NCBI GenBank assembly: GCA_021784375.1
Contig: JAJXSV010000036.1
Location: forward strand, 1 to 14,171
From: Actinomycetes bacterium
GTDB taxonomy: Bacteria; Actinomycetota; Actinomycetes; S36-B12; UBA5976
DNA length: 14,171 nt
Direction of reading: 5' to 3'
Positions 1 through 13,781 of this stretch are shown here, in pieces (within the stretch, counting starts at the first letter, position 1; the number at the start of each line of letters is the position of its first letter). The translations under genes were made by a program, and so were the position numbers. Under the pieces are notes generated by a model. That model did not search any database and was not told the origin of the DNA. It was given only the letters and a program-made list of their open reading frames with translations.

Positions 1-222
1 CGGGAGACCGGGGCCATCGTCACGGCGGAGGAAGCCGTGAGCAAGGGTGGGCTGGGCGCCGCCGTCGCAGCAGTGGTGGTCACGAACGCACCGGTGCCCA
101 TGCGCATCATCGGCACCGACCACTTCGCACCGACCGGTTCGGTCGAGTGGCTGTTCGAGCACTACGGGCTGACGCCGGCGGGCATCGCCGATGCCGCTCG
201 CGAGGTCCTCGGAGCGAAGTGA
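1..222 (+). CDS. Transketolase C-terminal domain (5'-truncated at window edge)
   Basis: The open frame runs from base 1 to a TGA at 220-222 and gives the last 73 residues of a transketolase. The visible part is the C-terminal (transketolase_C) domain: a TGAIVTAEEAVSKGGLGAAV stretch, then RIIGTDHF, GSVEWLFEHYGL and a final helix, all typical of this domain. Transketolase moves two-carbon ketol units between sugar phosphates using thiamine diphosphate. The catalytic and cofactor domains lie outside the window, so it cannot be seen whether this is a full-length enzyme or the small subunit of a split pair; the pattern of this short, family-like tail fits either. The next gene starts one base after the stop, so they are surely co-transcribed. 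In context it would process the product of the downstream kinase, possibly as subunit B of an apulose-4-phosphate transketolase (inference). Confidence 0.9.
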   Translation, partial: RETGAIVTAEEAVSKGGLGAAVAAVVVTNAPVPMRIIGTDHFAPTGSVEWLFEHYGLTPAGIADAAREVLGAK

Positions 223-223
223 G

Positions 224-1660
224 ATGACACCGTCGGCAGTGCTGGCGATCGACCAGGGCAGTGGCAGTACCAAGGCCCTCCTGGTGGACGCGCACGGCAG
301 GGTGGTCGCGCGCGGCGCTGCTGATGTCACCACCACCCATCCCCGACCGGGCTGGGTGCAGCAGGATGCGAACCACCTCTGGGACACCGTGCAGGCGGCA
401 GTGGCCGCCGCGCTCGCCCAGGCGCCGGGTGTCGTCGTGTCCGCCATCGGCCTGAGCACGCAACGGGAATCGCTCGTGGTGTGGGATCGCCGGACGGGCG
501 ATCCCCTGGCACCCGTGCTCACCTGGCAGGACCGGCGCAGCAGCGCCCTCATCGAGCGCTTCGTGCCGGTGGCGGACGACGTGCGCCGCCTCAGCGGCCT
601 GCCGCTCGACCCCATGTTCTCGGCCCTCAAGGCCGCGGTGGTGCTGCCCGGACTGCCCGACGGTGCCGACGCCTGCATCGGCACCGTCGACTCCTGGCTG
701 CTCTGGAAGCTCGGCGCCGGTCACGTGATCGAAGTCGGCAATGCCAGTCGCACACAGTTGCTCGACGTCGCGACCGGGACCTGGAGCGACGACCTGCTCG
801 ACCTCTTCGGCCTGTCGCGAGGCGTGCTCCCGGAGGTCGTCCCCTCCAGCGCAGTGCATCGACTGCGCACGGAGGCACTGCCGGGCGTGCCTGCCGGCAC
901 GCCGATCTCCGGTGTCCTCGGCGACTCCCACGCTGCGCTGTTCGCGCATGCGGGTTGGATCCCGGGTCGCGTGAAGGCCACCTACGGCACGGGCTCGTCC
1001 GTGATGGCGATCAGCCCTGCCAACGGGCTCGCCCAGGGCCTGTGCGAGACCATTGCCTGGAGCGACGAGCGCGGCATCGCGCGTGCGCTCGAGGGCAACA
1101 TCCTCTCCAGCGGTTCGACGCTCGTCTGGCTGGCCGGGCTCTTCGGTACGACCGTCGAGGCGCTGGCCGCCGCGGCGACGCCCAGCACCGGTGCCGTGCA
1201 CCTCGTGCCCGCCTTCAACGGACTGGGTGCTCCCTGGTGGGACGAGCAGGCGACGGGAGTCCTCTCCGGCCTCACCATGAGCACCGGCTTCGCGGACATC
1301 GCCTCCGCCGGCCTCGACTCCGTCGCCATGCAGGTGGCGGACATCGTCGACGCCATGCGCGCCTCCGGCGTGCACGTCGACAACCTGCGTGCGGACGGCG
1401 GCGCCACCCGCAATGCTGATCTCATGCAGCGCCAAGCCGACTTCGCCCATGCCCGCATCGCCGTATCCACCGTGGCCGAGCTCTCGGCGGTGGGCGCCGC
1501 GAACTTCGCGGGGCGCACGGTCGGCATCTGGGACGACGTGCAACTCGCGGAGCGGGCCCGCACCGAGGCGGAGTACGCGCCCGCCCTCGATGACGTCGGC
1601 CGGCGCCAGCGTCGGCAGGACTGGCACGACGCGGTCGCCCGCGCCCGGTTGGCGGTCTGA
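224..1660 (+). CDS. FGGY-family carbohydrate kinase, glycerol-kinase-like subgroup (candidate apulose/pentulose kinase)
   Basis: This 478-residue protein has the usual FGGY length. The N-terminal ATPase lobe opens with AIDQGSGSTKALL (8-20), followed by PGWVQQD (42-48), STQRES (78-83) and TWQDRR (100-105). The second lobe has GTVDSWLLWKLG, NASRTQLL, GDSHAALF (233-240), YGTGSSVM, and the family signature region around 327-352 and 388-405 (RADGGATRNADLMQRQADF). R81, E82 and D234 match the substrate-binding Arg, Glu and Asp of glycerol kinase. The Tyr of the glycerol kinase DPYFS motif is Met131 here (DPMFS), so glycerol is an unlikely substrate. With the neighbouring isomerase and transketolase, a ketopentose or apulose is more likely. 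The ATG at 224 is preferred to the upstream frame because a GGAG at 211-214 precedes it by 9 bases. Kinase family is sure; substrate is inference. Confidence 0.92.
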   Translation: MTPSAVLAIDQGSGSTKALLVDAHGRVVARGAADVTTTHPRPGWVQQDANHLWDTVQAAVAAALAQAPGVVVSAIGLSTQRESLVVWDRRTGDPLAPVLTWQDRRSSALIERFVPVADDVRRLSGLPLDPMFSALKAAVVLPGLPDGADACIGTVDSWLLWKLGAGHVIEVGNASRTQLLDVATGTWSDDLLDLFGLSRGVLPEVVPSSAVHRLRTEALPGVPAGTPISGVLGDSHAALFAHAGWIPGRVKATYGTGSSVMAISPANGLAQGLCETIAWSDERGIARALEGNILSSGSTLVWLAGLFGTTVEALAAAATPSTGAVHLVPAFNGLGAPWWDEQATGVLSGLTMSTGFADIASAGLDSVAMQVADIVDAMRASGVHVDNLRADGGATRNADLMQRQADFAHARIAVSTVAELSAVGAANFAGRTVGIWDDVQLAERARTEAEYAPALDDVGRRQRRQDWHDAVARARLAV

Positions 1661-1662
1661 CC

Positions 1663-2628
1663 ATGGCGACGCCCGGCACGGAACAATTGCGCTTCATCAC
1701 CAAGGTCGCCCTCATGTACCACGAGGAGGGCCTGAACCAGCCGCAGATCTGCGCCCAACTCGGCATCCCCCAGGCGCGCGTCAGCCGCCTGCTGAAGCAG
1801 GCCGTGGAACTCGGCATCGTGCGTACGACGGTGGTGCCGCCCGCGGAGCTGCATGTGGACTGGGAGCGGGAACTGGTGCGCGCCTTCGGCATCCAGGACG
1901 TCGTCATCGCCGACGCCGTGGACGGGCACGGTCATGCCGTGCTCGGGGCGGCAGCGGCGACCTACCTGGAGTCCACCCTCTACGGCAACGAGCGTCTCGG
2001 CATCTCCTCGTGGAGCGCCTCGCTGCTGGCGACCGCTGAGGCCATGCGTCCGCGCCCCCATCGCGTGGCCACCGAGGTCGTGCAACTCCTCGGCGGAGTG
2101 GGCAACCCGCTGGCGCAGGTGTCCGCCACCCGACTGACCGCGCGCTTCGCGGAACTCACCGGTGGCGAACCGAGGTTCCTGGCCGCTCCCGGCGTGGTCG
2201 GCTCCGCCGCGGCACGGGACGCACTGCTCGCGGACCCCTACGTGCACCAGGTGGTGGAGGCGTGGCAGGGGCTCACCACCGCCCTGGTCGGCATCGGCGC
2301 CCTCGAACCCTCACCGCTGCTCGCAGAGTCGGGCAACTCCATCAGCGACGGGGACCAGGCGGAGCTGCGATCCCTGGGTGGGGTCGGCGACGTCTGTCTG
2401 CACTACTTCGACGCTGCCGGCGACCCGGTGCGCTCTTCGCTGGACGAACGCGTGCTCGGCATCCCCGCAACCCTCCTGCGCAATGTCCCGCGCCGCATCG
2501 GCGTCGCCGGTGGCATGCGCAAGCTCGAAGCCATTCGCGCCGCACTCCGCGGCGGCTGGATCAACATCCTGATCACGGACTCGCAGGTCGCGGCCGCGCT
2601 CATATCGGAATTCAAGGAAAGGAACTAG
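1663..2628 (+). CDS. SorC/DeoR-family sugar-binding transcriptional regulator
   Basis: The 321-residue protein has a short N-terminal helix-turn-helix (about residues 10-52, with NQPQICAQLGIPQARVSRLL) and a large effector-binding domain of the sugar-bind (SorC/DeoR-like) family over about 60-318. Family landmarks in order are LGISSWSASLLATAEAM, VQLLGGVGN, APGVV, LVGIGALEPSPLL, GGVGDVCLHYFD, ERVLGIP, and a final VAGGMRKLEAIRAALRGGW with NILITD. Such regulators bind a phosphorylated sugar and release or activate the promoter of their own catabolic operon. The gene starts two bases after the kinase stop with no strong Shine-Dalgarno, suggesting translational coupling. Its place inside the operon suggests that it senses a pathway intermediate, for example the kinase product. 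The operator is probably upstream of the window. Confidence 0.93.
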   Translation: MATPGTEQLRFITKVALMYHEEGLNQPQICAQLGIPQARVSRLLKQAVELGIVRTTVVPPAELHVDWERELVRAFGIQDVVIADAVDGHGHAVLGAAAATYLESTLYGNERLGISSWSASLLATAEAMRPRPHRVATEVVQLLGGVGNPLAQVSATRLTARFAELTGGEPRFLAAPGVVGSAAARDALLADPYVHQVVEAWQGLTTALVGIGALEPSPLLAESGNSISDGDQAELRSLGGVGDVCLHYFDAAGDPVRSSLDERVLGIPATLLRNVPRRIGVAGGMRKLEAIRAALRGGWINILITDSQVAAALISEFKERN

Positions 2629-2632
2629 CACC

Positions 2633-3610
2633 ATGTCATCGTTGACCTTCGGCTCCGGCATCTGGGCGTTCGGCCAATTCGTGGATCGCTACGCCTCTGA
2701 CGGCTACGGCGATCCCAAGTCGAGCTACGACATGATCATGGCGGCCTCCAAGGTGCCGGACCTCACCTACCTGGACATCAATGTGCCCTTCGCCACCGAT
2801 GGCCTGTCCGCGACCGAGATGAAGAAGATGCTCGACGACAACGGGCTCAAGTGCCGCGCCACCACGCCGCACATCTACATGCGCGAGTACGCCAAGGGCT
2901 CCTTCACCAATCCCGACCCCAAGCTGCGCGCCAAGACCCTCGACCGCGTGCGCGAGGCCATCGACGCAGCCGCCGTCCTCGAGGCCGGGTATGTGAAGTT
3001 CTGGCCCGGGCAGGATGGCTTCGACATGCCCGGCCAGGTCAACTACATGCAGATGTGGGACTACACGATCGACGGCATCCGGACGCTCGCCCAGGAGAAC
3101 CCCGGTGTCCAGTTCGCGATCGAGTACAAGGCGAAGGAACCGCGCGTGCGCATGCTGCTCGCCACCGCGACCAAGACCCTGCTGGCCATCCAGGAGATGG
3201 GCGTCCCGAACGTCGGCATCGTCATGGACTTCGGCCACTCGCTGCTCGCCAACGAGACGCCGGCGGAGGCCGTGCAACTCATCCACCGCCACGGCAAGCT
3301 GGTGAGCGCGGAACTCAACGACAACTGGCGTGGATGGGACGATGACCTCCCCGTCGGCTCGGTCCACCTGTTCGAGACCCTCGAGTACATGCTCGCCCTG
3401 CGTGAGATCGGCTGGACCGATCCGGTGCTGCTCGACCAGTTCCCGTTCCGTGAGGACCCGGTCGCCGCTGTGTCCCGCAGCATCGAGACCATCAAGCGCC
3501 TGGACGCGGTGTGCGACCGCATCGACATGGCGGCGCTGCGCCAGGCCCAGGACGCGCAGGACGCCCTCGCAGCACAGGCCGTGCTGTGGGACGCCGTACT
3601 CGGAAAGTGA
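2633..3610 (+). CDS. Xylose-isomerase-like TIM-barrel sugar isomerase (AP_endonuc_2 fold); candidate D-apiose isomerase
   Basis: The 325-residue protein has the motif order of xylose-isomerase-like TIM barrels. Visible are WPGQDG (124-129, like WGGREG of xylose isomerase), IEYK (163-166, like EPK), MDFGHS (198-203, Asp and His three apart), AELNDN (226-231), GWDDDLP (234-240) and LDQFP (267-271). These supply Glu164, Asp199, Glu227 and Asp268 for one divalent metal and Asp199, His202, Asp236 and Asp238 for a second, by comparison with XylA and RhaI from memory. The expected reaction is aldose-ketose isomerisation. RBS AGGAA at 2620-2624 sits 8 bases before the ATG. It lies 4 bases after the regulator gene. 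Followed by kinase and transketolase steps, it would start the pathway; apiose to apulose is the leading guess, with another pentose as the alternative. Confidence 0.85.
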   Translation: MSSLTFGSGIWAFGQFVDRYASDGYGDPKSSYDMIMAASKVPDLTYLDINVPFATDGLSATEMKKMLDDNGLKCRATTPHIYMREYAKGSFTNPDPKLRAKTLDRVREAIDAAAVLEAGYVKFWPGQDGFDMPGQVNYMQMWDYTIDGIRTLAQENPGVQFAIEYKAKEPRVRMLLATATKTLLAIQEMGVPNVGIVMDFGHSLLANETPAEAVQLIHRHGKLVSAELNDNWRGWDDDLPVGSVHLFETLEYMLALREIGWTDPVLLDQFPFREDPVAAVSRSIETIKRLDAVCDRIDMAALRQAQDAQDALAAQAVLWDAVLGK

Positions 3611-3621
3611 TGGGCGCCACC

Positions 3622-4593
3622 ATGTCCAAGTACAGGAGCGCCTGGTCGGTCGCGGCTGACGCGAAGCGCATCCGCGTCATCTGCGACAACGACTACGCGG
3701 GCGACCCCGACGGCCTGGTGCAACTCGCGCACCACCTGCTGAGCCCGACCGTCGACATCGTCGGCATCATCGGCACGCACCTCGCGGTGGGCGATCACTG
3801 GGGGAGCCAGCACGAGGACGTGCCACTGGCAGCGGCCCAGATCGCACGCAAGGTAGCCAGGCTCTGCAAGCGCGACGAGGTCAAGATCGTCACCGGTGCA
3901 CGCGGCCACATGGTCGATCACCGCGATCCGCTGGACTCCGATGGCATCCAACTCATCATCGAGGAGGCCATGCGCGACGACGTCGACACACCGCTCTATG
4001 TGGTGTGCGGCGCCAGCCTCACCGAGATCGCCTGTGCATGGCTCATCGAGCCGCGCATCGCGGAACGCCTCACCGTCGTGTGGATCGGCGGGCACGAGCA
4101 CCCGGGAGCGCCAGTCGCGCCGGGCGCCCCCGACATGGAGTACAACCTCAACATCGATCGCATCTCCGGCCAGGTGGTGTTCAACGACTCCAACCTCAAC
4201 ATCTGGCAGTTCCCGAGGGATGCGTACCGACAGGCGCTCGCCAGCCGCGCCGAGTTGGAACTGCGCATGCACCGCCGCGGGGGCAAGCTGGGCAGGTTCC
4301 TGTTCGCCCGGTTGGGGGCCGTGGCTGCCAACGTCTCGGGCTTCGGCATGGTCGCGCGCGAGACATACGTGCTCGGCGACAGCCCGCTCGTGTTGGCGAC
4401 GGCGCTGCAGTCGATGTTCGAGTCCGAGCCCGCGTCCTGCCATTGGGACGAACGCCGCTGCCCCTTCATCAACGACGAGGGCCTGTACGTCGACAACCCC
4501 GACGGCCGTCCGCTGCGGGTGTTCACCCATATCGACAACCGCTTGTGGCTCGAGGACCTCTTCGCCAAGCTCGAGCTGCTCGCAGAGAGATGA
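3622..4593 (+). CDS. Nucleoside-hydrolase-like protein, copy 1 (diverged active site)
   Basis: The 323-residue protein has the inosine-uridine nucleoside hydrolase layout. The N-terminal metal motif is DNDYAGDPDG (22-31) instead of DTDPGxDD. MEYNLNIDRISGQVVF (172-187) matches the family EFN..xDPEAAxIVF element that binds ribose. LGDSPL (251-256) takes the place of the C-terminal HD motif, so the final metal Asp (253) is kept but the catalytic His is Gly. The fold family is well supported; hydrolysis of ordinary nucleosides is doubtful. There is no signal peptide, so it is cytoplasmic. Two starts are possible: ATG 3610, overlapping the isomerase stop as TGATG, and ATG 3622; I give 3622 because the GGAAAG at 3602-3607 is too close to 3610, but it is not decisive. 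It is followed by a paralogue about half identical by eye. Confidence 0.85.
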   Translation: MSKYRSAWSVAADAKRIRVICDNDYAGDPDGLVQLAHHLLSPTVDIVGIIGTHLAVGDHWGSQHEDVPLAAAQIARKVARLCKRDEVKIVTGARGHMVDHRDPLDSDGIQLIIEEAMRDDVDTPLYVVCGASLTEIACAWLIEPRIAERLTVVWIGGHEHPGAPVAPGAPDMEYNLNIDRISGQVVFNDSNLNIWQFPRDAYRQALASRAELELRMHRRGGKLGRFLFARLGAVAANVSGFGMVARETYVLGDSPLVLATALQSMFESEPASCHWDERRCPFINDEGLYVDNPDGRPLRVFTHIDNRLWLEDLFAKLELLAER

Positions 4594-4598
4594 CCGCC

Positions 4599-5585
4599 AT
4601 GGATCACCCCTTCTGGCCCCTCAAGTACGTGGTGCCACACGCACGTGTCATCAGCGACAACGACTACTCGGGCGACCCCGACGGTTTGGCGCAGCTGGCG
4701 CACCACCTGCTGAGCCCGTCGGTCGACGTGCGGGCCGTCATCGGCACGCGCCTGGGCATCATGCGCGACGATCGCGACCACGACTTCACGCCCGTCATCG
4801 ACACGGCCGTGCAGTACGCGCGCGAGGTGGCGGCGCTGTGCGGACGTGAGGAGGTGCCGGTGCTGCGCGGCGGTCTGCACCGACTGCCCGACGCGGAGAC
4901 CCCGGTGGACAGCGCGGGTGCGCGCTTCATCGTCCAGGAGGCCATGCGCGATGACACCGACCTCCCACTGTTCGTGTGCTGCGGGGCGGGACTCACGGAG
5001 GTCGCGAGTGCCTACCTCATGGAACCGCGCATCGCTGAGCGCATGACGCTCGTGTGGATCGGCGGCTACGAGCATGACGAGACCGCGCCCCGCGGCCCCG
5101 GCGCCGGTGACCTCGAGTACAACCTCTCGATCGACCTCCTCGCCGGTCAGGTCATCTTCAACCGGTCGGGCATCGAGGTGTGGCAGGTGCCTCGCAATGT
5201 GTACCGGCAGTGCATGACCTCGCGCGCGGAACTCATCGTGCGTCTCGGCGGAAACGGCGCGCTCGGTGACTACCTGCTGCAGAAGATCGGCCTGATCTCG
5301 GAGCGCTTCTCCGAGTTCGGTATCCCGCTCGGTGAGTCGTACGTGCTCGGCGACAGCCCGCTCGCGCTGCTCACCGTGCTGCCGACGATGATGGAGTCCG
5401 AGGTCTCGTCGAGCGACTGGACGGACCTGCCGTGCCCGCGCATCCTCGACAGCGGGCGCTATGAGCCCAACCCGCAGGGCCAGACGATCCGTGCCTTCTC
5501 GCGCATCGACAACCGCACCATGCTCGAGGACTTCTTCGCCAAGGTCACGCTGCGGGCCCGGGTCGTCCCCAACCCCTCCATCTGA
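4599..5585 (+). CDS. Nucleoside-hydrolase-like protein, copy 2 (diverged active site)
   Basis: This 328-residue protein is a tandem paralogue of the gene before it. It shares DNDYSGDPDG (20-29), HHLLSP, EAMRDD, MEPRIAER with VWIGGYEH, LEYNLSID (172-179), VPRNVYRQ, YVLGDSPLALL (248-258) and a C-terminal IDNR...LEDFFAK. The two copies differ most in the loop after the first motif (HLAVGDHWGSQ in copy 1 versus RLGIMRDDRDHD here) and at 213-245, regions likely to shape the pocket. The divergence suggests two substrates or a heteromeric enzyme, not a recent duplication. ATG 4599 is chosen because AGAGAG at 4584-4589 lies 9 bases upstream; ATG 4590, overlapping the previous stop as ATGA, is the alternative. 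No signal peptide or membrane segment is seen. The function is probably glycoside cleavage, but the substrate is unknown. Confidence 0.85.
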   Translation: MDHPFWPLKYVVPHARVISDNDYSGDPDGLAQLAHHLLSPSVDVRAVIGTRLGIMRDDRDHDFTPVIDTAVQYAREVAALCGREEVPVLRGGLHRLPDAETPVDSAGARFIVQEAMRDDTDLPLFVCCGAGLTEVASAYLMEPRIAERMTLVWIGGYEHDETAPRGPGAGDLEYNLSIDLLAGQVIFNRSGIEVWQVPRNVYRQCMTSRAELIVRLGGNGALGDYLLQKIGLISERFSEFGIPLGESYVLGDSPLALLTVLPTMMESEVSSSDWTDLPCPRILDSGRYEPNPQGQTIRAFSRIDNRTMLEDFFAKVTLRARVVPNPSI

Positions 5586-5690
5586 CAACCCAGCGAACGC
5601 ACCCGGGAGCCGTCGGCACCTGCGGCCCGGGCACGGGCCCGGCGTCAGGACTCCGCGGAGGTTGAGTGCCGTGAATCGAGAGTGAGTGTC
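5586..5690 (+). other. Short intergenic leader with palindrome and possible four-codon ORF
   Basis: These 105 bases contain no convincing terminator: a small GCCCG/CGGGC hairpin near 5623-5640 is GC-only with no T run. A perfect 10-bp palindrome CTCCGCGGAG lies at 5651-5660. A strong Shine-Dalgarno GGAGG (5657-5661) lies 9 bases before GTG 5671, which opens a frame of only four codons ending at TGA 5683-5685, six bases before the ATG of the hydrolase gene. It may be a coupling leader or chance. No clear -35/-10 pair was seen, so the hydrolase may be read from the operon upstream. Confidence 0.35.
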
Positions 5691-7691
5691 ATGCCAGCTG
5701 TGCTGTACGAGGACTTCACCGATCCCTACGTGGATGTTGACGAGTGGCGTGACGCACCAGTGCGGCATCGGTACGTGCATGGCGGATTCGCGAGCAACAG
5801 CACGCGCTTCTCGCTCTACCTGCCGCCGGCGGAGCAGTACCAGGGTCGCTTCTTCCAGCACTTCACGCCGGTGCCCGACAGTGAGTTCCTGGCGGTCTCG
5901 GCCACCGGCCAGGAGGACCGCATCGGCTTCGCGGTCTCAAGCGGTGCCTACTTCCTGGAGACGAACGGTGGCGCCGACGTGCACGTGCCCGGATCGCAGG
6001 GCGACCCCACGTTGTCGGCCTATCGGGCCAACGCTGCGTGCGCTGAGTACTCACGCAGCGTCGCCCAGGGCATGTACGGCACGCACCGCCCGTATGGCTA
6101 CGCCTATGGTGGCAGCGGTGGGGCCTTCCGCACGATCGGTGCGGCCGAGAACACCACCGGCGTCTGGGACGGCTTCGTGCCCTACGTCCCCGGCAGCCCG
6201 ATGGCCATCCCCAATGTCTTCAGCGTGCGCATGCACGCCATGCGCGTCCTACGCAACGCCTTCGATGGCATCGTCGATGCCCTCGAGCCCGGGGGGAGCG
6301 GCGACCCGCTCGTCGGCCTGACATCGGAGGAGCGGGAGGCCTTCCTCGAGGTGACGCGCATGGGCTTCCCACCGCGGTCGTGGACCGCGCATCGCACCAT
6401 GGGCATCCACGCGTTCGCCGTCCTCTACCAGGCGCTCGTCACGATGGATCCCACGTACTTCGAGGAGTTCTGGACGGCACCCGGCTACCTGGGCACCGAC
6501 CCCGCATCCTCGGTGCGGCGGGATCGGTTGCAGGTCGATGCCCGCGTGACCGGGGTGATCGGCCTGCGCGAGGCCGCCGCGAGGGCATTGCCGCTGTCGC
6601 CGCAGGCGGGTCGTGCCCGTGGTGGCGTTGACAACGCGTTCGCCGCCAGTGCCAACGACGATGCGGTGGCCGCACTGCAGCTCGACATCACCCTCCCGGA
6701 CGACCTGCAGTCGGCGGTGCTGCGCGTGACGAGCGGAGCCGCCGCAGGCGCCAGCTTCAACCTGCGGGCCGCGCGCGTCCGGGTCATCGTCTTCGACGAG
6801 CAGGCGATCGGGACACTGGTGCAGGGCATCGCCGTCGGCGATGGGGTGCGGATCGACAACAGCAACTTCCTCGCCGCGCAGACCTACCACCGACACCAGG
6901 TGCCGGGGACGGAGTACGCGGTCTGGGACCAGTTCCGCAATCAGGACGGCACTCCGCGGTACCCGCAACGGCCGATGATCGTGGGCCCCATGATGGCGAT
7001 GGGCGCGACGGGCACGCTGCAGACCGGACACATCCACGACCGCATGATCGTGGTGGCCTGCCTGCTCGACCGCGAAGCCTTCCCCTGGCAGGCCGACTGG
7101 TACCGGCAACGGGTCACCGAGCACCTGGGCGCACGCGCCGAGGACATGTTCCGGCTCTGGTTCGTCGACCATGCGCTGCACGGCGACTTCGAACGCCAGG
7201 ACGATCCGACGCACAGCGTCAGCTACGTCGGCGTCCTGCATGAGGCGCTACGCGCGCTCAGCGCGTGGGTCGAGCGCGGAGTCGAGCCGGCGGCGAGCAC
7301 CGCGTACCGGGTGGTCGAAGGCCAGGTGGAGGTGCCCGCCGCGGCCCTCGAGCGCCTCGGTGTGCAGCCGACGATCAGGTTGCTCGCCAACGGCGCCACG
7401 CGGGCCGAGGTGATGGCGGGCGAGGACGTGGTCTTCACGGTGACCGCGGAGGCGCCACCCGCTGGCGCTCCGATCGTGCGCTTGGAGTGGGACTTCGAGG
7501 GACAAGGCGAGTTCGCCGCCGCAGACGACCTCGCCGGAGAGCGGCAGGTGCGCCTCTCGCGCACACACGCATTCAACGACGTCGGCACCCACTTCGTCAC
7601 GGTGCGCGTGCGCGCCCAGCATGAGCGAGATTCGGGGACGCCGTTCGCGCGCGTGGACAACCTGGGCCGTGTGCGTGTCGTGGTCGTCTGA
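5691..7691 (+). CDS. Alpha/beta-hydrolase-like protein with inserted region and C-terminal PKD-like domain
   Basis: The 666-residue protein is not a family I can name. Residues about 40-250 and 425-530 look like an alpha/beta-hydrolase core: a nucleophile elbow YAYGGSGGAF (137-146, Ser142), a late strand RMIVVACLLD ending at Asp460, and LWFVDHALHGD (489-499) supplying His494 or His497. This resembles large tannase-like esterases, but the cysteine pair of tannases was not seen. Between them, about 265-420 forms a beta-rich insertion. Residues about 565-666 look like a PKD-type beta-sandwich (VVFTVTAE, LEWDFEGQGEF, HAFNDVGTHFVTVRV). PKD domains are usually extracellular, yet no signal peptide is visible. 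ATG 5691 is chosen; GTG 5682 in frame is an alternative. It might remove an ester-linked group from the substrate of the preceding operon (inference). Confidence 0.72.
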   Translation: MPAVLYEDFTDPYVDVDEWRDAPVRHRYVHGGFASNSTRFSLYLPPAEQYQGRFFQHFTPVPDSEFLAVSATGQEDRIGFAVSSGAYFLETNGGADVHVPGSQGDPTLSAYRANAACAEYSRSVAQGMYGTHRPYGYAYGGSGGAFRTIGAAENTTGVWDGFVPYVPGSPMAIPNVFSVRMHAMRVLRNAFDGIVDALEPGGSGDPLVGLTSEEREAFLEVTRMGFPPRSWTAHRTMGIHAFAVLYQALVTMDPTYFEEFWTAPGYLGTDPASSVRRDRLQVDARVTGVIGLREAAARALPLSPQAGRARGGVDNAFAASANDDAVAALQLDITLPDDLQSAVLRVTSGAAAGASFNLRAARVRVIVFDEQAIGTLVQGIAVGDGVRIDNSNFLAAQTYHRHQVPGTEYAVWDQFRNQDGTPRYPQRPMIVGPMMAMGATGTLQTGHIHDRMIVVACLLDREAFPWQADWYRQRVTEHLGARAEDMFRLWFVDHALHGDFERQDDPTHSVSYVGVLHEALRALSAWVERGVEPAASTAYRVVEGQVEVPAAALERLGVQPTIRLLANGATRAEVMAGEDVVFTVTAEAPPAGAPIVRLEWDFEGQGEFAAADDLAGERQVRLSRTHAFNDVGTHFVTVRVRAQHERDSGTPFARVDNLGRVRVVVV

Positions 7692-7811: not shown

Positions 7812-9032
7812 ATGTACGAAGCCGTGAGACTCGACCCGATCGAGGACGCCATCCAAGCCATCCGCGAGGGCAAGCTCGTGCTGGTCGTCGACGATGAGGA
7901 CCGCGAGAACGAGGGCGATTTCATCTTCTCCGCCGAGCTGGCGACACCGGAGCTCATGGCCTTCGCCGTCCGCTACTCGACCGGCGTCATCTGCGCACCC
8001 ATGGTGGGCGAGGACCTCGACCGCCTCAACATCCCACCGATGACGGCCGTCAACACGGACCAGAAGGGCACGGCGTACACCGTGTCCGTCGATGCCCGCG
8101 GTGTGGAGGCCACGGGCATCTCCGCGGCCGATCGCGCGATCACGGTGCGCACGCTGGCCGCGCCGGACTCCGTGCCCAACGACTTCACGCGACCCGGTCA
8201 CGTCTTCCCACTCCGTGCGGTACCCGGCGGGGTGCTGCGGCGTGCCGGGCACACCGAGGCCACGGTGGATCTCTGCCGACTGGCGGGCCTCCGCCCCGCT
8301 GGCATCTGCGTCGAGATCCAGCATGACAACGGGGAGATGATGCGTGCGCCGGAGATCCGCGCCTTCTCAGATGCGCACGGCATCGTCATGGTGTCGATCG
8401 CGGATCTCATCTCCTACATCCGGCGCACCGAGCGCCAGGTGGAGCGCGTGACGGAGACCGAACTGGCCACCGAGTACGGCACCTTCCATGCCGTCGGCTT
8501 CCGCAGCTTCATCGACGGCAGCGAGCACCTCGCCATGGTCATGGGTGAGATCGGCGACGGTGAGGACGTCCTCGTGCGCGTGCACTCCGAATGCCTCACC
8601 GGCGATGTCTTCCACTCCAACCGCTGCGACTGCGGACCGCAGCTGGATGCCGCACTCCACGCCGTGGCGGCGAAGGGTCGCGGCGTCGTGCTCTACGTCG
8701 GCGGACACGAAGGACGGGGCATCGGTCTGCTTGGCAAGCTCAAGGCCTATGCGTTGCAGGAGCAGGGGCTCGACACCGTCGACGCGAACCTCGCCCTGGG
8801 GTTCCAGGCGGATGCGCGCGACTACGGGACCGGCGCGCAGATCCTCGTCGACCTCGGCATCAGGTCCATGCGCCTGCTCACGAACAACCCGGCGAAGCGC
8901 GCTGGCCTCGAGGGCTACGGGCTGACCATCTCCGGGCGTGAGCCACTCGTCATCGCGCCCCACCCGGACAATGCCGCCTACCTGGCGACCAAGGCCGCGC
9001 GCTTCGGCCACGACTTCACGACGAGCGACTGA
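7812..9032 (+). CDS. ribBA: Bifunctional 3,4-dihydroxy-2-butanone 4-phosphate synthase / GTP cyclohydrolase II
   Basis: The 406-residue protein makes both riboflavin precursors: DHBP from ribulose 5-phosphate and the pyrimidine intermediate from GTP. The N-terminal synthase domain (about 5-205) has the acidic loop [10 protein letters not shown] (27-36), [13 protein letters not shown] and GHTEATVDL (146-154). The C-terminal cyclohydrolase domain (about 210-402) has [11 protein letters not shown] with zinc ligands Cys261, Cys272 and Cys274, the GTP-binding HEGRGIGL (299-306), ADARDYG (333-339) with the catalytic Asp and Arg, and LLTNNPAK. Both halves look intact and full length. A small oddity is YVGGHEGR where YLRGHEGR or YLRQEGR is usual. 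It stands alone, with no ribH or ribE beside it, between sugar genes and converging on the GH30 gene. The ATG at 7812 fits both domain start and promoter. Confidence 0.97.
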
Positions 9033-9075: not shown

Positions 9076-10482
9076 TTATGACGTCGCGGGGATGACGAAG
9101 GTGCTGAACGAATCCGCGGGCAGCGTGGCCGTGAGCACCAGGCCGCCGAGGAGGGCGCTCCACTCCTGGGCTGCGCACGTGTCGTTGTGCACGACGAGGA
9201 CCACGCCCCCATCGGGATTGCGCCACGCCAACTGCTGCTCGAAGCCGGCATAGCTCGACGTCGGCAGCACCCTGGCTCCCGGCCGCACGAAGTGCGTCAT
9301 GTGCTTGAGCAACTGGTACTCATGTGAGAAGCGGTAGCTGCGCGTCACGGGATCAACCACGACGAGCGAGTTCTGCGCCCATCCCCAGCGGCTGATGCCG
9401 CCCTCCACGAGCGCCATGTTCCAGTACATGTACGCACTTGCACCGTGCGTCATGTAGTGCCTGATGAGCGACCAGGTGTAACGGGCGAAGCGCCAGTCGT
9501 TGAGGCCATCGCCACACTCCTGCTCCGACTGGTAGATGCGCAGTTCGGGGCGCTTGCGGTGCAGGTAGGGCACCGCGCCCTTCCCGGCCCACTGAACGCC
9601 GACACCGGAGACGAACGGGCCCGCCCCGGGGTCATCGAGCACCGCCTCCGCCTGCCACTCCTTCGGGCGCTCGAGGGTGCCGAGGAAGATCTCGACGCCA
9701 CGCCGGGCCATCTCCGGGCCCAGGTGGCGGATGAAGCGGGCGAGGCCCTGGGGCGTCCAGGTGCAGCTGGGGAACACCTGTGCGGAGTTGAACTCGTTCT
9801 GCGGCATCACCATGCCGATCGCGATGTCGCGCTCGGCGTAGGCGTCGATGAAGCGGCCGAAGTAGCGCGCATAGGCGTCGAGGTAGCGATCCTCCTGGAT
9901 GAAGGTGTCGGTGTCTTCGGCGCGAACCTGATGGGGCTGCAGGCCGTTCTCCGCACGCTGCCACAGGGCCATGGGCGCGCTGCATGCGTAGTGCCCGTTG
10001 TCCTTCATCCAGGTGGGCGGGCTCCACGGTGAGGCCCACAGGCGCAGCGCCGGCTGATGCCGCTTGGCCGCGCGGATGAACGGGATGAGCGTCTCCTCGT
10101 CGTGCGCGATGCTGAAGCCCGACAGCTCGAAGTCTCCTTCCAGCTCGTCGTAGGAGTACCAGTCGCGCGAGAAGTCATTGGCCCCCAAGGGCATCCGGCA
10201 GAGCGCCAGATCCAGGCCCGTCCCCGGCTCGAACAGCGCGCGCATGACAGCGTCACGATCGGCCTCGCTCAGCAGGGCGAGCGCATCCCAGCCGAACTCG
10301 TTGAAGGAGGCGCCGAACCCCTCCATGACCTGCTGTGGGTGCTCGAGGTCGACGAGCGTCGACGGCATGGCGGTGGGCGTCGAGAGCGCGGCCGGAGCCT
10401 GCTCGACCCAAGGGGCGTCCTCCGTGGTCACGATCCATCGGACGCCTGCAGCGCCCGGCAGCGGGTGTGTCGTCTCCGTCAT
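9076..10482 (-). CDS. Glycoside hydrolase family 30 protein (glucosylceramidase-like beta-glycosidase)
   Basis: The 468-residue protein shows the GH30 pattern: VMEGFGASFNEFGWDAL (52-68), a barrel with LALCRMPLGANDFS (92-105), LWASPWSPPTWMKDNG (148-163), the acid/base Glu230 in VMPQNEFNSAQ (225-235), and the nucleophile Glu320 in IYQSEQECGDG (316-326). The last 90 residues form the beta-sandwich that packs on the barrel. GH30 enzymes retain anomeric configuration and act on beta-glucosides, beta-xylosides or similar; the exact activity cannot be read from sequence. No signal peptide is visible, so it should be cytoplasmic and act on imported oligosaccharides or glycosides. ATG 10482 is chosen over two upstream ATGs (10500 and 10566) because AGAGGA lies 7 bases before it and the fold begins soon after. 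The upstream GH3 gene on the same strand ends 96 bases away. Confidence 0.9.
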   Translation of the reverse strand: MTETTHPLPGAAGVRWIVTTEDAPWVEQAPAALSTPTAMPSTLVDLEHPQQVMEGFGASFNEFGWDALALLSEADRDAVMRALFEPGTGLDLALCRMPLGANDFSRDWYSYDELEGDFELSGFSIAHDEETLIPFIRAAKRHQPALRLWASPWSPPTWMKDNGHYACSAPMALWQRAENGLQPHQVRAEDTDTFIQEDRYLDAYARYFGRFIDAYAERDIAIGMVMPQNEFNSAQVFPSCTWTPQGLARFIRHLGPEMARRGVEIFLGTLERPKEWQAEAVLDDPGAGPFVSGVGVQWAGKGAVPYLHRKRPELRIYQSEQECGDGLNDWRFARYTWSLIRHYMTHGASAYMYWNMALVEGGISRWGWAQNSLVVVDPVTRSYRFSHEYQLLKHMTHFVRPGARVLPTSSYAGFEQQLAWRNPDGGVVLVVHNDTCAAQEWSALLGGLVLTATLPADSFSTFVIPATS

Positions 10483-10530
10483 GCCCTCATCCTCTCGCAT
10501 GCCCTTCGCAGCCGGCCGTGGCCACGAACG

Positions 10531-10564
10531 GAGCGCCGGTCCGATGACCTCCGGACCGGCGCTC
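10531..10564 (-). terminator. Perfect 13-bp hairpin between GH3 and GH30 genes
   Basis: GAGCGCCGGTCCG (10531-10543) and CGGACCGGCGCTC (10552-10564) form a perfect 13-bp stem with an 8-base loop, 14 bases beyond the GH3 stop codon on the minus strand. There is no T run. It could end most GH3 transcripts or set a lower level of GH30 by partial read-through, or protect the 3' end of GH3 mRNA. Confidence 0.7.
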
Positions 10565-10578
10565 ACGACGTCGATGTG

Positions 10579-13014
10579 CTACTTGATCTCGATGGTGCGG
10601 ACCGTGCCGTCCGTCAGTGAGGCGTTGTCGGCGACGATGACCTCGAACTGGCCGGGCTCGGTCTGCCAGCCATCCGCCCAGTGCTGGAAGCGGCGGGCCT
10701 CGATGGTGACCTCGGCCGTGACGGACGCGCCAGCCGGCGCCGACACGCGCGCGAATCCGGCCAGCCAGTGCGCGGGACGGCGAACTCCGGACTCACGACG
10801 GCGCAGGTACACCTGCACCACGGTGCTGCCATCGCGCTTGCCGGTGTTGGTGATCCCGACGTGCACGGTCACCGGGTTGCCGGCATGCATCTGCGACACG
10901 ACATCGACGCTGTCGCGCGTCCAGGTCGTGTAGCCCAGGCCGTGGCCCATCCAGTATGCGGGCTCCCTGCCAGCGAGCGTGTACGCGCGGTAGCCGATGT
11001 TCAGGCCCTCCTCGTAGACGACCTCCAGCGTGCCCGGCGCGGGGTCCGTGTTCGACACCGGCGCGGACGCCAGATCGACGGCCCAGGACGTCGGGAGGTG
11101 ACCGCCGGGCTCGATGACGCCGTAGATGACATCCGCCAGCGCGTTGCCCATCTCCTCGCCCGGGAACCAGGTGAGGAGGATGGCCGCCACGTCCCCCCGC
11201 CACGGCATCTCCACCGGTGAGCCGGCATTCACGACCACGATGGTGCGCTTGTTCACGGCCGCGACTGCCGCCACCAGCGCATCCTGGTCACCGGGCAGGC
11301 GGAGGTCGCTGCGGTCGTAGCCCTCGCTCTCCACGATCTCCGTGGTGCCGACGACGACGATCGCGACCTCGGCCGTGGAGGCGAGGGCGACGGCGCGTTC
11401 GAGTTCGGCCGCATCCGACAGCCGCGGGGCGCGGTAGCCGATGCGCGTGGAAACCACGGAGAGTCCGGGGATGCCCATGCCGGATGCCGCGTGGAACTCC
11501 AGGTCGATGCTCTCACCGGGCTGCATGTCCTGCTCGACGAACGACTGCGGCGGGTTCATGAAGGCAGCGGCCGGATCGCCCTCGAAGGTGGCGGCACCCT
11601 CGAAGCGGGTCTCGCCGTTGACGATGATCTTGGCGCCGCCGAGGGTCGCGGTGCCGAAGCGGTGCACCCCCGCCTCGGCCGCCGTGAAGCGGGTGCGCAC
11701 GCGGGTCCAGGCCGTGGGTCCGGCGATGGTGGGGTTCATGTTGATGAAGTGGCTGCCGGCGCGGATCTCGCTCAGTACCTCGCTGCCGTCCTCGGCGAAG
11801 AAGGTGAGCTCGACGCCCTTGCTGCCATTGGGTGCGATCAGCAACTCGATCGGGAAGGGCTCGAGATCGTCGGAGAGGTGCGAGCCGACCGCGAACTGCA
11901 CGGTGGTGCCCAGTGCTGCGCCTGCGCGCAGGCCGTTGAGCGGCGAAACGGGCGCGAACGGGAGCACGGTCGCGGAGCCACCGCCCATGATGCGGCCCTC
12001 CAGCGCGTGCGCGCCGATCACCGCGATGGACTTGGTGCGCGACGCGAGCGGGAGCACGCCCTCGTTCTGCACCAGCACCATGCCCTCGGCCGCGATGGCC
12101 CGGATGCGGGCACGCGCGTCCGCCACGGTCCGCACGTCCTGCGGCTGGGACTGCAGCGCGCCCACGCGGTTGGCCAGGCGCAGCATGCGCAGCACCTTGT
12201 CGTCGATGGCCGCGACGGGGACGCGGCCGGCCTGCACCGCCTCGAGCAGGCCCTCGCTCCAGGGGCTCCGGGGGCCGGGCATGGCCCAGTCCTGGGCCGC
12301 GTTCGCAGACGCCTCGACGGAGCGCACGGCGGTCCAGTCCGAGACCACGACGCCGGAGAAGCCCCACTCGTCCTTGAGCGGGTGTCGCAGGAGGTCGTTC
12401 TCCGTCATGGTGGTGCCGTTGGTGCGGTTGTAGGCCGACATGATCGACCAGGCCTCGCCCTGGGTGACCGCGGCTTCGAAGGGCGCGAGGTAGAGCTCGC
12501 GGAGCGTCTGCTCATCGACCACGGAGTTCATGCTGAAGCGGTCGTTCTCGGAGTCGTTGGCCACGTAGTGCTTCGGGCAGGCGCCGACGCCCTGCTCCTG
12601 GACGCCCCTGATGTAGGCCACGGCCAGTTCACCGGTCAGGTACGGGTCCTCCGAGTAGGCCTCGAAGTGGCGACCGCCGCGGGGGGAGCGGTGCAGGTTG
12701 ATGGTGGGGCCGAGCACCACGTCGATGCCCTTGCGGCGCCCCTCCATGGCCGACAGCTGCCCGATGGTGCGCAGCGCCGTGCGATCCCAGGTGGAGGCCA
12801 GGCAGGTGGCCGACGGCAGGGACAGTGAGGGATCGCGTTCGTCCCATTCCGCGCCGCGCACGCCGGTCGGGCCGTCGGAGACGACGAGCTTGCGCAGTCC
12901 GATCGAGGGCAGGGCGTAGGCACTCCACGCATCCTCGCCGGTGAGCAGTCGGACCTTCTCCTCGAGCGTGAGGGAGGCCACAAGATTCGTGAGTTCATTG
13001 CTTGTCAGGGGCAT
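10579..13014 (-). CDS. Glycoside hydrolase family 3 beta-glycosidase with PA14-like insertion
   Basis: The 811-residue protein has the order GH3 barrel (about 10-300), GH3 C-terminal sandwich (about 310-385 and 530-680) interrupted by a PA14-like beta domain (about 388-528), and a fibronectin-III-like tail (about 705-800). In the barrel, VLGPTINLHRSPRGGRHFE, CPKHYVANDSE and GVVVSDWTAV (221-230) place the nucleophile at Asp226. The acid/base is probably Glu562 or Glu564 in TEIVESEGYDRSDL, the usual place in this GH3 subgroup. The PA14 insertion is typical of fungal-KglB-like and actinobacterial beta-glucosidases. No signal peptide is seen, so it acts inside the cell on imported beta-glucosides. 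ATG 13014 is chosen over the TTG at 13050, since that TTG is the likely -35 box and no Shine-Dalgarno precedes either. It runs divergently from pgmB. Confidence 0.93.
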   Translation of the reverse strand: MPLTSNELTNLVASLTLEEKVRLLTGEDAWSAYALPSIGLRKLVVSDGPTGVRGAEWDERDPSLSLPSATCLASTWDRTALRTIGQLSAMEGRRKGIDVVLGPTINLHRSPRGGRHFEAYSEDPYLTGELAVAYIRGVQEQGVGACPKHYVANDSENDRFSMNSVVDEQTLRELYLAPFEAAVTQGEAWSIMSAYNRTNGTTMTENDLLRHPLKDEWGFSGVVVSDWTAVRSVEASANAAQDWAMPGPRSPWSEGLLEAVQAGRVPVAAIDDKVLRMLRLANRVGALQSQPQDVRTVADARARIRAIAAEGMVLVQNEGVLPLASRTKSIAVIGAHALEGRIMGGGSATVLPFAPVSPLNGLRAGAALGTTVQFAVGSHLSDDLEPFPIELLIAPNGSKGVELTFFAEDGSEVLSEIRAGSHFINMNPTIAGPTAWTRVRTRFTAAEAGVHRFGTATLGGAKIIVNGETRFEGAATFEGDPAAAFMNPPQSFVEQDMQPGESIDLEFHAASGMGIPGLSVVSTRIGYRAPRLSDAAELERAVALASTAEVAIVVVGTTEIVESEGYDRSDLRLPGDQDALVAAVAAVNKRTIVVVNAGSPVEMPWRGDVAAILLTWFPGEEMGNALADVIYGVIEPGGHLPTSWAVDLASAPVSNTDPAPGTLEVVYEEGLNIGYRAYTLAGREPAYWMGHGLGYTTWTRDSVDVVSQMHAGNPVTVHVGITNTGKRDGSTVVQVYLRRRESGVRRPAHWLAGFARVSAPAGASVTAEVTIEARRFQHWADGWQTEPGQFEVIVADNASLTDGTVRTIEIK

Positions 13015-13031
13015 AACTGAAACGATAAAGT
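13002..13031 (+). promoter_or_regulatory. Probable pgmB promoter, overlapping the divergent GH3 promoter
   Basis: TTGTCA (13002-13007, one mismatch to TTGACA) and TAAAGT (13026-13031, TANNNT) are 18 bases apart on the plus strand. The -10 box overlaps the -10 box of the GH3 promoter on the other strand by two bases, so the two promoters are likely to compete or be controlled together. Its -35 lies inside the GH3 coding start. Confidence 0.45.
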
Positions 13032-13050
13032 AGAAACCTGACAGATGCAA
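13015..13050 (-). promoter_or_regulatory. Probable leaderless promoter of the GH3 gene
   Basis: On the minus strand TTGCAT (13050-13045) and TATCGT (13027-13022) are 17 bases apart, and the -10 box ends 7 bases before the ATG at 13014. That geometry would start the RNA at the start codon, which explains the missing Shine-Dalgarno. An alternative -10, TACTTT, would leave a longer leader. Confidence 0.5.
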
Positions 13051-13062: not shown

Positions 13063-13094
13063 GGATGTCCTCCGAAGCGGAAGGTGTGCGCGGC

Positions 13095-13781
13095 ATGAGC
13101 TGGCCCAGGACCATGCAGGACGCCCGGGGCGCCCTGTTCGACCTCGACGGCGTGCTCGTCGACACGGCCGTCCTGCACCACGCGGCCTGGCAGGAACTCG
13201 CCACCGAACTGGGCTTCCTGCTCACCGACGAGGCAGCGGAGCGCACCAAGGGGGTGTCGCGACTGGCGGCCCTCGACATCGTCCTCGAGGCCGGGGGCAT
13301 CACCGCTGACGACGACGCCAGGTTGCGCTGGGCCACGCGCAAGAACGAGCGCTACAAGGAGATGCTGGGCGACCTCTCGCCCCGGGACCTGCTCCCCGGA
13401 GCCCTGGAGTTCCTGCACGCGCTCGGCGATCGCGGCATCAGGCGCGCACTGGGCTCGGCCAGCGCGAACGCCCCCGCCATCCTGCAGCACCTGGGGATCG
13501 CGGGCTGCTTCGAGGCGGTCGTCGACGGCACCGTGGTCACGGACGCCAAGCCGGCTCCCGCGGTCTTCCTCAAGGGCGCCGAACTGCTCGGCCTGCCCCA
13601 CGCGCATTGCGTCGTCTACGAGGACGCGGTGGCGGGCGTGCAGGCGGCGCACGCGGCCGGCATGTTCTGCGTCGGCATCGGCAGCCCCAGGAACCTGCCC
13701 GAGGCGGACGTCGTGGTCCCGAGCCTGGCCTTCGCCGACATCAGCATCTTCGCCACCCCCACCCGGACACCCAGCAACTAG
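13095..13781 (+). CDS. pgmB: Beta-phosphoglucomutase (HAD superfamily)
   Basis: The protein (228 residues from this start) converts beta-glucose 1-phosphate to glucose 6-phosphate. HAD motif I is LFDLDGVLVD with Asp16 as nucleophile and Asp18 as acid/base. The cap carries KGVSRLAALD (52-61), the subfamily-specific phosphate-recognition loop. Motif II is LGSASANA (Ser121), motif III is DAKPAPAVF (Lys152), and motif IV is VYEDAVAGVQAA (Glu176, Asp177). These match beta-phosphoglucomutase, not a general phosphatase. ATG 13095 has GGAAGG at 13079-13084, 10 bases upstream; ATG 13065 (238 residues) and ATG 13113 are possible. A following GH3 gene begins 11 bases after the stop. A beta-glucose 1-phosphate source, usually a GH65-type disaccharide phosphorylase, is not in the window. 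Confidence 0.9.
   Translation: MSWPRTMQDARGALFDLDGVLVDTAVLHHAAWQELATELGFLLTDEAAERTKGVSRLAALDIVLEAGGITADDDARLRWATRKNERYKEMLGDLSPRDLLPGALEFLHALGDRGIRRALGSASANAPAILQHLGIAGCFEAVVDGTVVTDAKPAPAVFLKGAELLGLPHAHCVVYEDAVAGVQAAHAAGMFCVGIGSPRNLPEADVVVPSLAFADISIFATPTRTPSN

Follow-up and report, generated by a model that had tools for sequence, protein, structure and literature searches.

A tandem pair of nucleoside-hydrolase-fold proteins as candidate apioside hydrolases in a probable D-apiose operon

Apiose is a component of pectin and of numerous plant glycosides; to our knowledge, pathways for the free sugar have been described, the intracellular step that frees it is mostly unassigned, few apiosidases are known, and apioside cleavage has not been ascribed to the nucleoside hydrolase (NH) fold. 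The classical enzymes of this fold presumably use the histidine that precedes their last aspartate as the leaving-group acid. The available text of PMC8910321 gives DxDxxxDD as their fingerprint. Here we analyzed a stretch of 14,171 nucleotides from an Actinomycetes bacterium (assembly GCA_021784375.1, contig JAJXSV010000036.1; the window), in which two adjacent genes, NH1 and NH2, encode variant NH-fold proteins and follow a sugar isomerase gene. We consider it fairly likely that NH1 and NH2 are metal-dependent NH-fold apioside hydrolases that feed D-apiose catabolism. The base of this proposal is the predicted fold, the invariant residues, the make-up of the operon and the fact that NH is linked with D-apiose genes in two bacterial groups, while the metal, the substrate, the mechanism and the cell location are what we infer.

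Fold and active site of NH1 and NH2

The predicted structure has the NH fold in structural alignment to 1mas, which we take to be the enzyme from Crithidia, and the two proteins, 51.4% identical over 317 residues, belong narrowly to the superfamily, with 38.6 (NH1) and 34.5 (NH2) bits against the cut-off of 34.2 for PF01156 (IU_nuc_hydro). The motifs of NH1 read D22-N-D24-Y-A-G-D28-P-D30-G, E173-Y-N175 and L-G252-D253-S-P, the first being DNDYAGDPDG and DNDYSGDPDG in the two window proteins. Six residues (D24, D30, E173, N175, G252, and D253) are identical in all 66 members of an alignment from which pieces shorter than 250 aa and repeats had been removed, and alignment A1 shows the same identity across its 72 rows. 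The classical fingerprint is absent from the window pair, whose motif is one residue longer, and from every one of the 66 aligned members, and the histidine before the last aspartate is replaced by glycine (G252) in 66/66. The sequence-only reading had described a tandem pair with the motif DNDYxGDPDG, the E-Y-N element, the final aspartate and glycine in place of histidine; two plus-strand open reading frames carry these motifs as described, and the identity of the six site residues across the family supports its view that the shared changes are not random decay. Decay of duplicated nucleosidase genes was rejected as an explanation, the site residues being invariant in relatives.

The further claim that the active site has been rewritten stands for the loss of the histidine and falls short for the metal site, where the aspartates are invariant, the change is a one-residue insertion and a similar motif has been published for HopQ1. 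Taking D10, D14, D15, and D242 as the numbering of the classical enzyme, the best mapping would pair D24 with D10, D28 with D14, D30 with D15 and D253 with D242, P29 being inserted. Three sources led to this mapping: the beginning of the structural alignment (model 16.. against 1mas 2..), the predicted secondary structure (a strand at 17-23, a helix at 30-40) and the motifs themselves. In the MAFFT alignment, the first motif and the HD motif of RihC are out of register with it. The three metal aspartates are probably all retained, one residue having been inserted and the histidine lost, and, judged from the sequences, the metal site seems to be preserved.

Protein clusters matching NH1 and NH2 number 1,670 and 4,056, respectively, and among the 120 listed for each the names purine nucleosidase or inosine-uridine hydrolase are common. 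That the pair are ordinary nucleoside or riboside hydrolases supplying ribose appears very improbable to us, given that the fingerprint and the leaving-group histidine are missing in all aligned members, that the best NCBIfam nucleoside hydrolase model has a cut-off of 450 bits and yields 42 and 26, and that no base-use gene or ribokinase occurs among the ten window genes scanned with Pfam (E 0.001) and NCBIfam profiles.

In the mechanism that we propose, NH1 and NH2, probably Ca2+-dependent and intracellular, would cut D-apiose off plant apiosides, e.g., apiosyl-glucosides of phenolics. D24, D30, and D253, together with a backbone carbonyl close to T134, would hold the metal, which would in turn bind the beta-D-apiofuranosyl ring by its cis-2,3-diol, in the same way as ribose; metal-bound water, activated by D24, would attack C1, and glycine could stand in for the leaving-group histidine because the leaving group is no base. 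Free D-apiose would then be isomerized by the ApsI-like enzyme, phosphorylated by the AplK-like kinase and split by the AptAB transketolase. Speculatively, the two copies may divide substrates between them or form a hetero-oligomer.

Two other functions, action on a non-glycoside apiose derivative (lactone or phosphate) and a non-catalytic role in binding or sensing, together strike us as a distant prospect. In their favor, HopQ1 is a variant NH-like protein without detectable nucleoside hydrolase activity in the available text of PMC3608555. Against them, the residues of NH1 and NH2 presumed to contact metal and sugar are invariant among the aligned members, and NH occurs with the ApsI route, which is not known to have a lactone step.

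The operon and its D-apiose identity

The enzyme roles of the D-apiose pathway reportedly go back to Carter 2018 and are partly backed by NCBIfam names. The cluster of E. coli SE15 serves as the apiose reference in PMC13001218; in the available text of that source, E. coli and E. fergusonii strains with the apiose cluster grew on D-apiose and K-12 did not, SE15 itself not being named among the strains grown. The AptB-like end in the window is 38% identical over 69 aa to SE15 AptB (E 3e-9) and 62% identical over 66 aa to AptB of a Sphaerisporangium cluster; the kinase is 39% identical to SE15 AplK and 42-49% to kinases within apt clusters, and the regulator 35% to the E. coli apiose-cluster regulator and 50-58% to regulators adjoining apt clusters. 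The window isomerase (ISO) scores 328 bits against 3ktc, presumably Pectobacterium ApsI, and 79 bits against the next entry, a xylose isomerase. The genes for ISO, regulator, AptA, AptB, and kinase are consecutive in Sphaerisporangium, and ISO homologues (44-46%) stand with AptA, AptB, kinase and regulator in 11/11 Microbacteriaceae loci, the regulator being cut in one; AptA and most of AptB fall beyond the window and were observed only in relatives. The isomerase, the kinase, the regulator and the transketolase end all have their counterparts in apiose clusters, which makes it very probable that the operon serves D-apiose use, in agreement with the pentose operon of isomerase, kinase and transketolase that had been claimed from the sequence alone. 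The best NCBIfam reading of the kinase, glycerol kinase, was rejected: its 387 bits lie below the cut-off of 590, and such kinases occur in apt clusters.

ISO homology alone is no proof of apiose, because L039-L042, L153, and L154 have no apt genes nearby. In the first four of these loci (ISO homologues of 36-41%) the stretch read held no apt genes, and no annotated apt genes were found within 8 kb of the ISO homologue of Pantoea (49%) or within 9 kb of that of Croceibacterium.

A gap of 11 bp lies between the ISO stop and the NH1 start, and NH1 and NH2 overlap by 4 bases or are separated by 5, all three genes running in the same direction, a spacing that fits a single transcript. Close database relatives comprise six for NH1 at 84-88% and eight for NH2 at 80-89%. 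In the tree, the close relatives of NH2 (77-89%) stand apart from those of NH1. The pair is probably retained elsewhere, judging from the relatives P0003 and P0128, one of each kind, for which the longest contig has an identical length (78,793).

Linkage to D-apiose and glycoside genes in other genomes

Among 398 Microbacteriaceae genomes, NH (E <=1e-15) was found in 40, ISO (E <=1e-60) in 11, and both in 7 (Fisher p 1.5e-5). The two genes share one contig in 7/7 genomes, 3.4 to 17.3 kb apart, and in four of these (L095, L097, L102, and L109) NH is divergent from AptA; the NH linked to ISO in L126 belongs to the KNEADD type, and both types are found once each in L110. The second marker was provided by NH neighbors lacking any Pfam match. 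These genes, within 1 kb of NH in L112 (207.6 bits), L114 (212.1 bits; cut-off 750) and L043 (found by genome search), match D-apionate lactonase (NF049900) and no other NCBIfam family. A short-chain dehydrogenase gene stands beside the lactonase relative in all three, and in L112 it lies between the relative and NH. Homologues of NF049900 occur in 27/40 NH-positive and 13/80 NH-negative genomes (p 3.6e-8), and either marker in 33/40 and 15/80, respectively (p 1.5e-11), or in 31/35 and 12/47 when genomes of at least 3.0 Mb are considered (p 7e-9). In NH-positive genomes ISO and the lactonase relative are nearly exclusive (7 and 27, with both in 1; p 0.0026), NF049900 being present in 26 of the 33 that have no ISO. 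The lactonase relative is within 20 kb of an NH gene in 9 of the 27 genomes, 3 of them within 1 kb.

The second group is Microvirga, which belongs to another phylum and gives a clear case. A plasmid of M. ossetica carries a ribose-type transporter, a Gfo/Idh/MocA dehydrogenase, a lactonase, OiaX-like and OiaK-like genes and a second sugar transporter, followed by NH (L152 14986-15885), with profile scores of 899 bits for the lactonase ApnL (cut-off 750) and of 453 and 575 bits for the OiaX-like and OiaK-like products (cut-off 700 for both). In M. lotononidis, a lactonase homologue and NH are 8.4 kb apart. The association with sugar operons, whose absence would by the sequence-only reading have refuted its proposal, is present in Microbacteriaceae and Microvirga and is not universal, sphingomonad plasmid loci having no such genes nearby.

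Several observations weigh against NH1 and NH2 being apioside hydrolases: (i) 4/11 Microbacteriaceae genomes with ApsI have no NH, and 7/40 NH-positive ones have neither marker; (ii) every Microbacteriaceae lactonase match is below the curated cut-off, and since none reaches it, these relatives may have shifted role; (iii) the 80 NH-negative controls were taken in list order, minus five no larger than 1.5 Mb (G417, G422, G424, G425, and G427), and the statistics ignore genome kinship, which makes the p values too small should both genes be confined to few lineages; (iv) the linkage could reflect a shared sugar island; (v) beyond Microbacteriaceae the association is less strong, with a strong ApsI match in 1/17 genomes of the first locus search and three more matches that were weak (near 1e-35); (vi) among 396 Actinomycetota genomes, NH occurred in 3 and ISO in 5, never together; and (vii) 12 of the 14 plasmid stretches inspected have no lactonase or ApsI-like gene, only the 2 from Microvirga having one. 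The plasmid search matched NH in 21 records and the lactonase in 236, and the stretches, 12-20 kb on each side, came from 14 of the 21 NH records, plus a duplicate of one (L151); the 12 marker-free stretches comprise 8 from sphingomonads and 4 with distant NH (24-29%; rhizobial or Paracoccus). The NH genes linked to ApsI or ApnL are not clustered in the NH tree, a quick tree with long branches, each group requiring 5 changes where shuffling gave means of 6.5 and 6.6, with 86 and 81 of 500 shuffles as low. NH would be at most one of several ways of getting apiose, and some NH may act on other furanosides.

The neighborhoods of NH in Microbacteriaceae were counted in 38 stretches of 10-20 kb from 38/40 NH-positive genomes (G540 left out, L001 of G001 kept separate, no random control). 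They include an Opp-type binding protein (25 stretches), GH3 (15), the GH78 rhamnosidase (13), GH42 (11), a PF13204-like gene (6), and a PF07632 gene (4); the L001 stretch has none of these. Such neighbors fit plant-glycoside use. GH78 lies near NH in L003, L005, L010, L014, and L017, GH1 in L020, and GH3 together with old-yellow-type reductases in L006, L008, and L021, a reductase also being present in L007; an old-yellow-enzyme reductase beside NH fits the use of flavonoid or phenolic glycosides. In Novosphingobium (L162 19950-26594), genes for GH43, GH3, and DUF5597 proteins come after NH, a fumarylacetoacetate hydrolase and a tannase/feruloyl esterase being encoded nearby, and on a Croceibacterium plasmid NH comes directly after a quercetin dioxygenase gene. 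A PF13204 apiosidase-like protein (DUF5060/DUF5605) adjoins NH in five stretches, L116 (6937-9393) and L118-L121, and a PF13204-like protein in two pieces lies beyond the apt genes in L126. The neighboring frames c7 and c12, which have no Pfam match, look like antisense frames of transporter genes. For a bee Bifidobacterium, PMC9897726 compares spent medium between glucose and amygdalin, and its available text numbers a nucleoside hydrolase, GH3 and GH30 among the proteins.

These neighborhoods also bear on the alternative that NH1 and NH2 act as glycofuranosidases on a different plant furanoside (an arabinofuranoside or a ribofuranoside), placed near apiose genes only via shared plant-glycoside islands, which we think unlikely though less so than the functions dismissed above. 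NH relatives do stand by GH78, GH3, GH30, GH1, or GH43 in stretches without an apiose marker, e.g., in Lachnospiraceae and sphingomonads, and the KNEADD subfamily may have a different substrate. On the other hand, different D-apiose routes recur beside NH (the isomerase, the lactonase relative and the D-apionate genes of Microvirga), and the isomerase and the lactonase relative replace each other in NH-positive genomes, which speaks against this alternative.

The window downstream of NH2 (Table 1) contains further candidate partners. The 669-aa protein has no Pfam match, but its AF2 model (pLDDT 82.6) gave MHETase, feruloyl esterases and tannase as the best Foldseek matches (E 7e-12 to 2e-7, with low TM scores of ~0.3), and its relatives occur near a rhamnosidase and adjoining a tannase/feruloyl esterase gene. 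Because plant apiosides often carry aromatic acyl groups, this esterase-like enzyme may prepare the substrate. Its many actinobacterial relatives include some that bear the name Tat signal or PKD domain protein and two with PF07519, and no relation to ApnL-like genes was detected. GH30 lies within 3 kb of NH in L002, L010, and L011. A riboflavin or ribitol link via ribBA was rejected, the product scoring as ordinary RibBA; relatives of RibBA are also near ISO in L132 and L133.

Table 1. Genes of the window
Feature	Coordinates	Strand	Remarks
Transketolase subunit, AptB-like	1..222	+	C-terminal 73 residues; cut by window edge
FGGY kinase, AplK-like	191..1660	+	D-apulose kinase expected; Pfam FGGY_N/C
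SorC/DeoR-type sugar-binding regulator	1663..2628	+	PF04198
TIM-barrel isomerase, ApsI-like (ISO)	2633..3610	+	D-apiose isomerase expected
NH1	3622..4593	+	323 aa; nucleoside-hydrolase-fold protein; proposed apioside hydrolase
NH2	4590..5585	+	Start 4590 or 4599; 328 aa from 4599; tandem paralogue of NH1
Predicted acyl esterase	5682..7691	+	669 aa; tannase/feruloyl esterase fold; possible partner
ribBA, bifunctional	7812-9032		Between esterase-like gene and GH30 gene
GH30 glycosidase	9079..10566	-	PF02055; possible partner
GH3 glycosidase	10582..13050	-	GH3 domains; possible partner removing inner sugar
Beta-phosphoglucomutase-like HAD gene	13065-13781		After GH3 gene; bPGM model 188.2 vs cut-off 189.4 bits

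Comparison with known systems

A search of open-licence PubMed Central, a scope outside which most subscription papers and all bioRxiv preprints lie, found no NH-fold enzyme that cleaves apiosides. Compared with the inosine-uridine nucleoside hydrolases (PF01156; 1mas, 1ezr, RihA/B/C), the window pair has an extra residue in the first motif and glycine for the leaving-group histidine, and it sits among glycoside and apiose genes. The D-apiose cluster of E. coli and Pectobacterium (AplK, AptA, AptB, and ApsI) shares with the window the kinase, the regulator, the transketolase end and the ApsI-like isomerase; unlike the window, the E. coli cluster lacks an annotated NH gene and, in the available text of PMC13001218, apsI. 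Among the NH-like effectors HopQ1/XopQ, HopQ1, an injected protein that is likened here through its published motif, has the variant aspartate motif DXXXDXDD (PMC3608555), which D24, D28, and D30 of NH1 fit; its last aspartate is glycine in the window (position 31) and aspartate in 35/66 members. The GH140-like bacterial apiosidases (PF13204) carry out the reaction proposed for NH1 and NH2 and presumably have another fold; the Pfam scan at E 0.001 found no PF13204 domain in either window protein.

The Sde182 NH-like family (PF07632) shares the NH-like domain, although neither NH1 nor NH2 reaches it at E 0.001. The KNEADD-type proteins of L152 and L126 exceed both cut-offs, with 60.7 and 64 bits for PF01156 and 33.9 and 28.6 bits for PF07632, respectively, and two PF07632 proteins that were scanned combine Sde0182_C with PKD or Ig-like domains. 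PF07632 genes lie near ApsI-like genes in Sphaerisporangium (3.8 kb) and in Croceibacterium (33 bp after the ApsI-like gene; L153 9996-11450), there 80 kb from NH on the same plasmid, which suggests a secreted, apiose-releasing role. In L037 (1160-3622), a pectate lyase gene lies between a PF07632 gene and an ApsI-like gene. A wider reading, to which we give somewhat less than even credence, is that the NH fold comprises a large unrecognized class of metal-dependent O-glycosidases, of the DPD and KNEADD types and perhaps the secreted PF07632 type, which would together be the apiosidases so far missing both for plant apiosides and for pectins that bear apiose and act via diol/calcium chemistry, with no glycoside hydrolase carboxylate pair. 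If NH1 and NH2 do free apiose inside cells, a nucleoside-cleaving fold cuts O-glycosides, part of the big NH family is misnamed, new tools become available for trimming apiosides such as apiin, and a testable prediction follows for PF07632.
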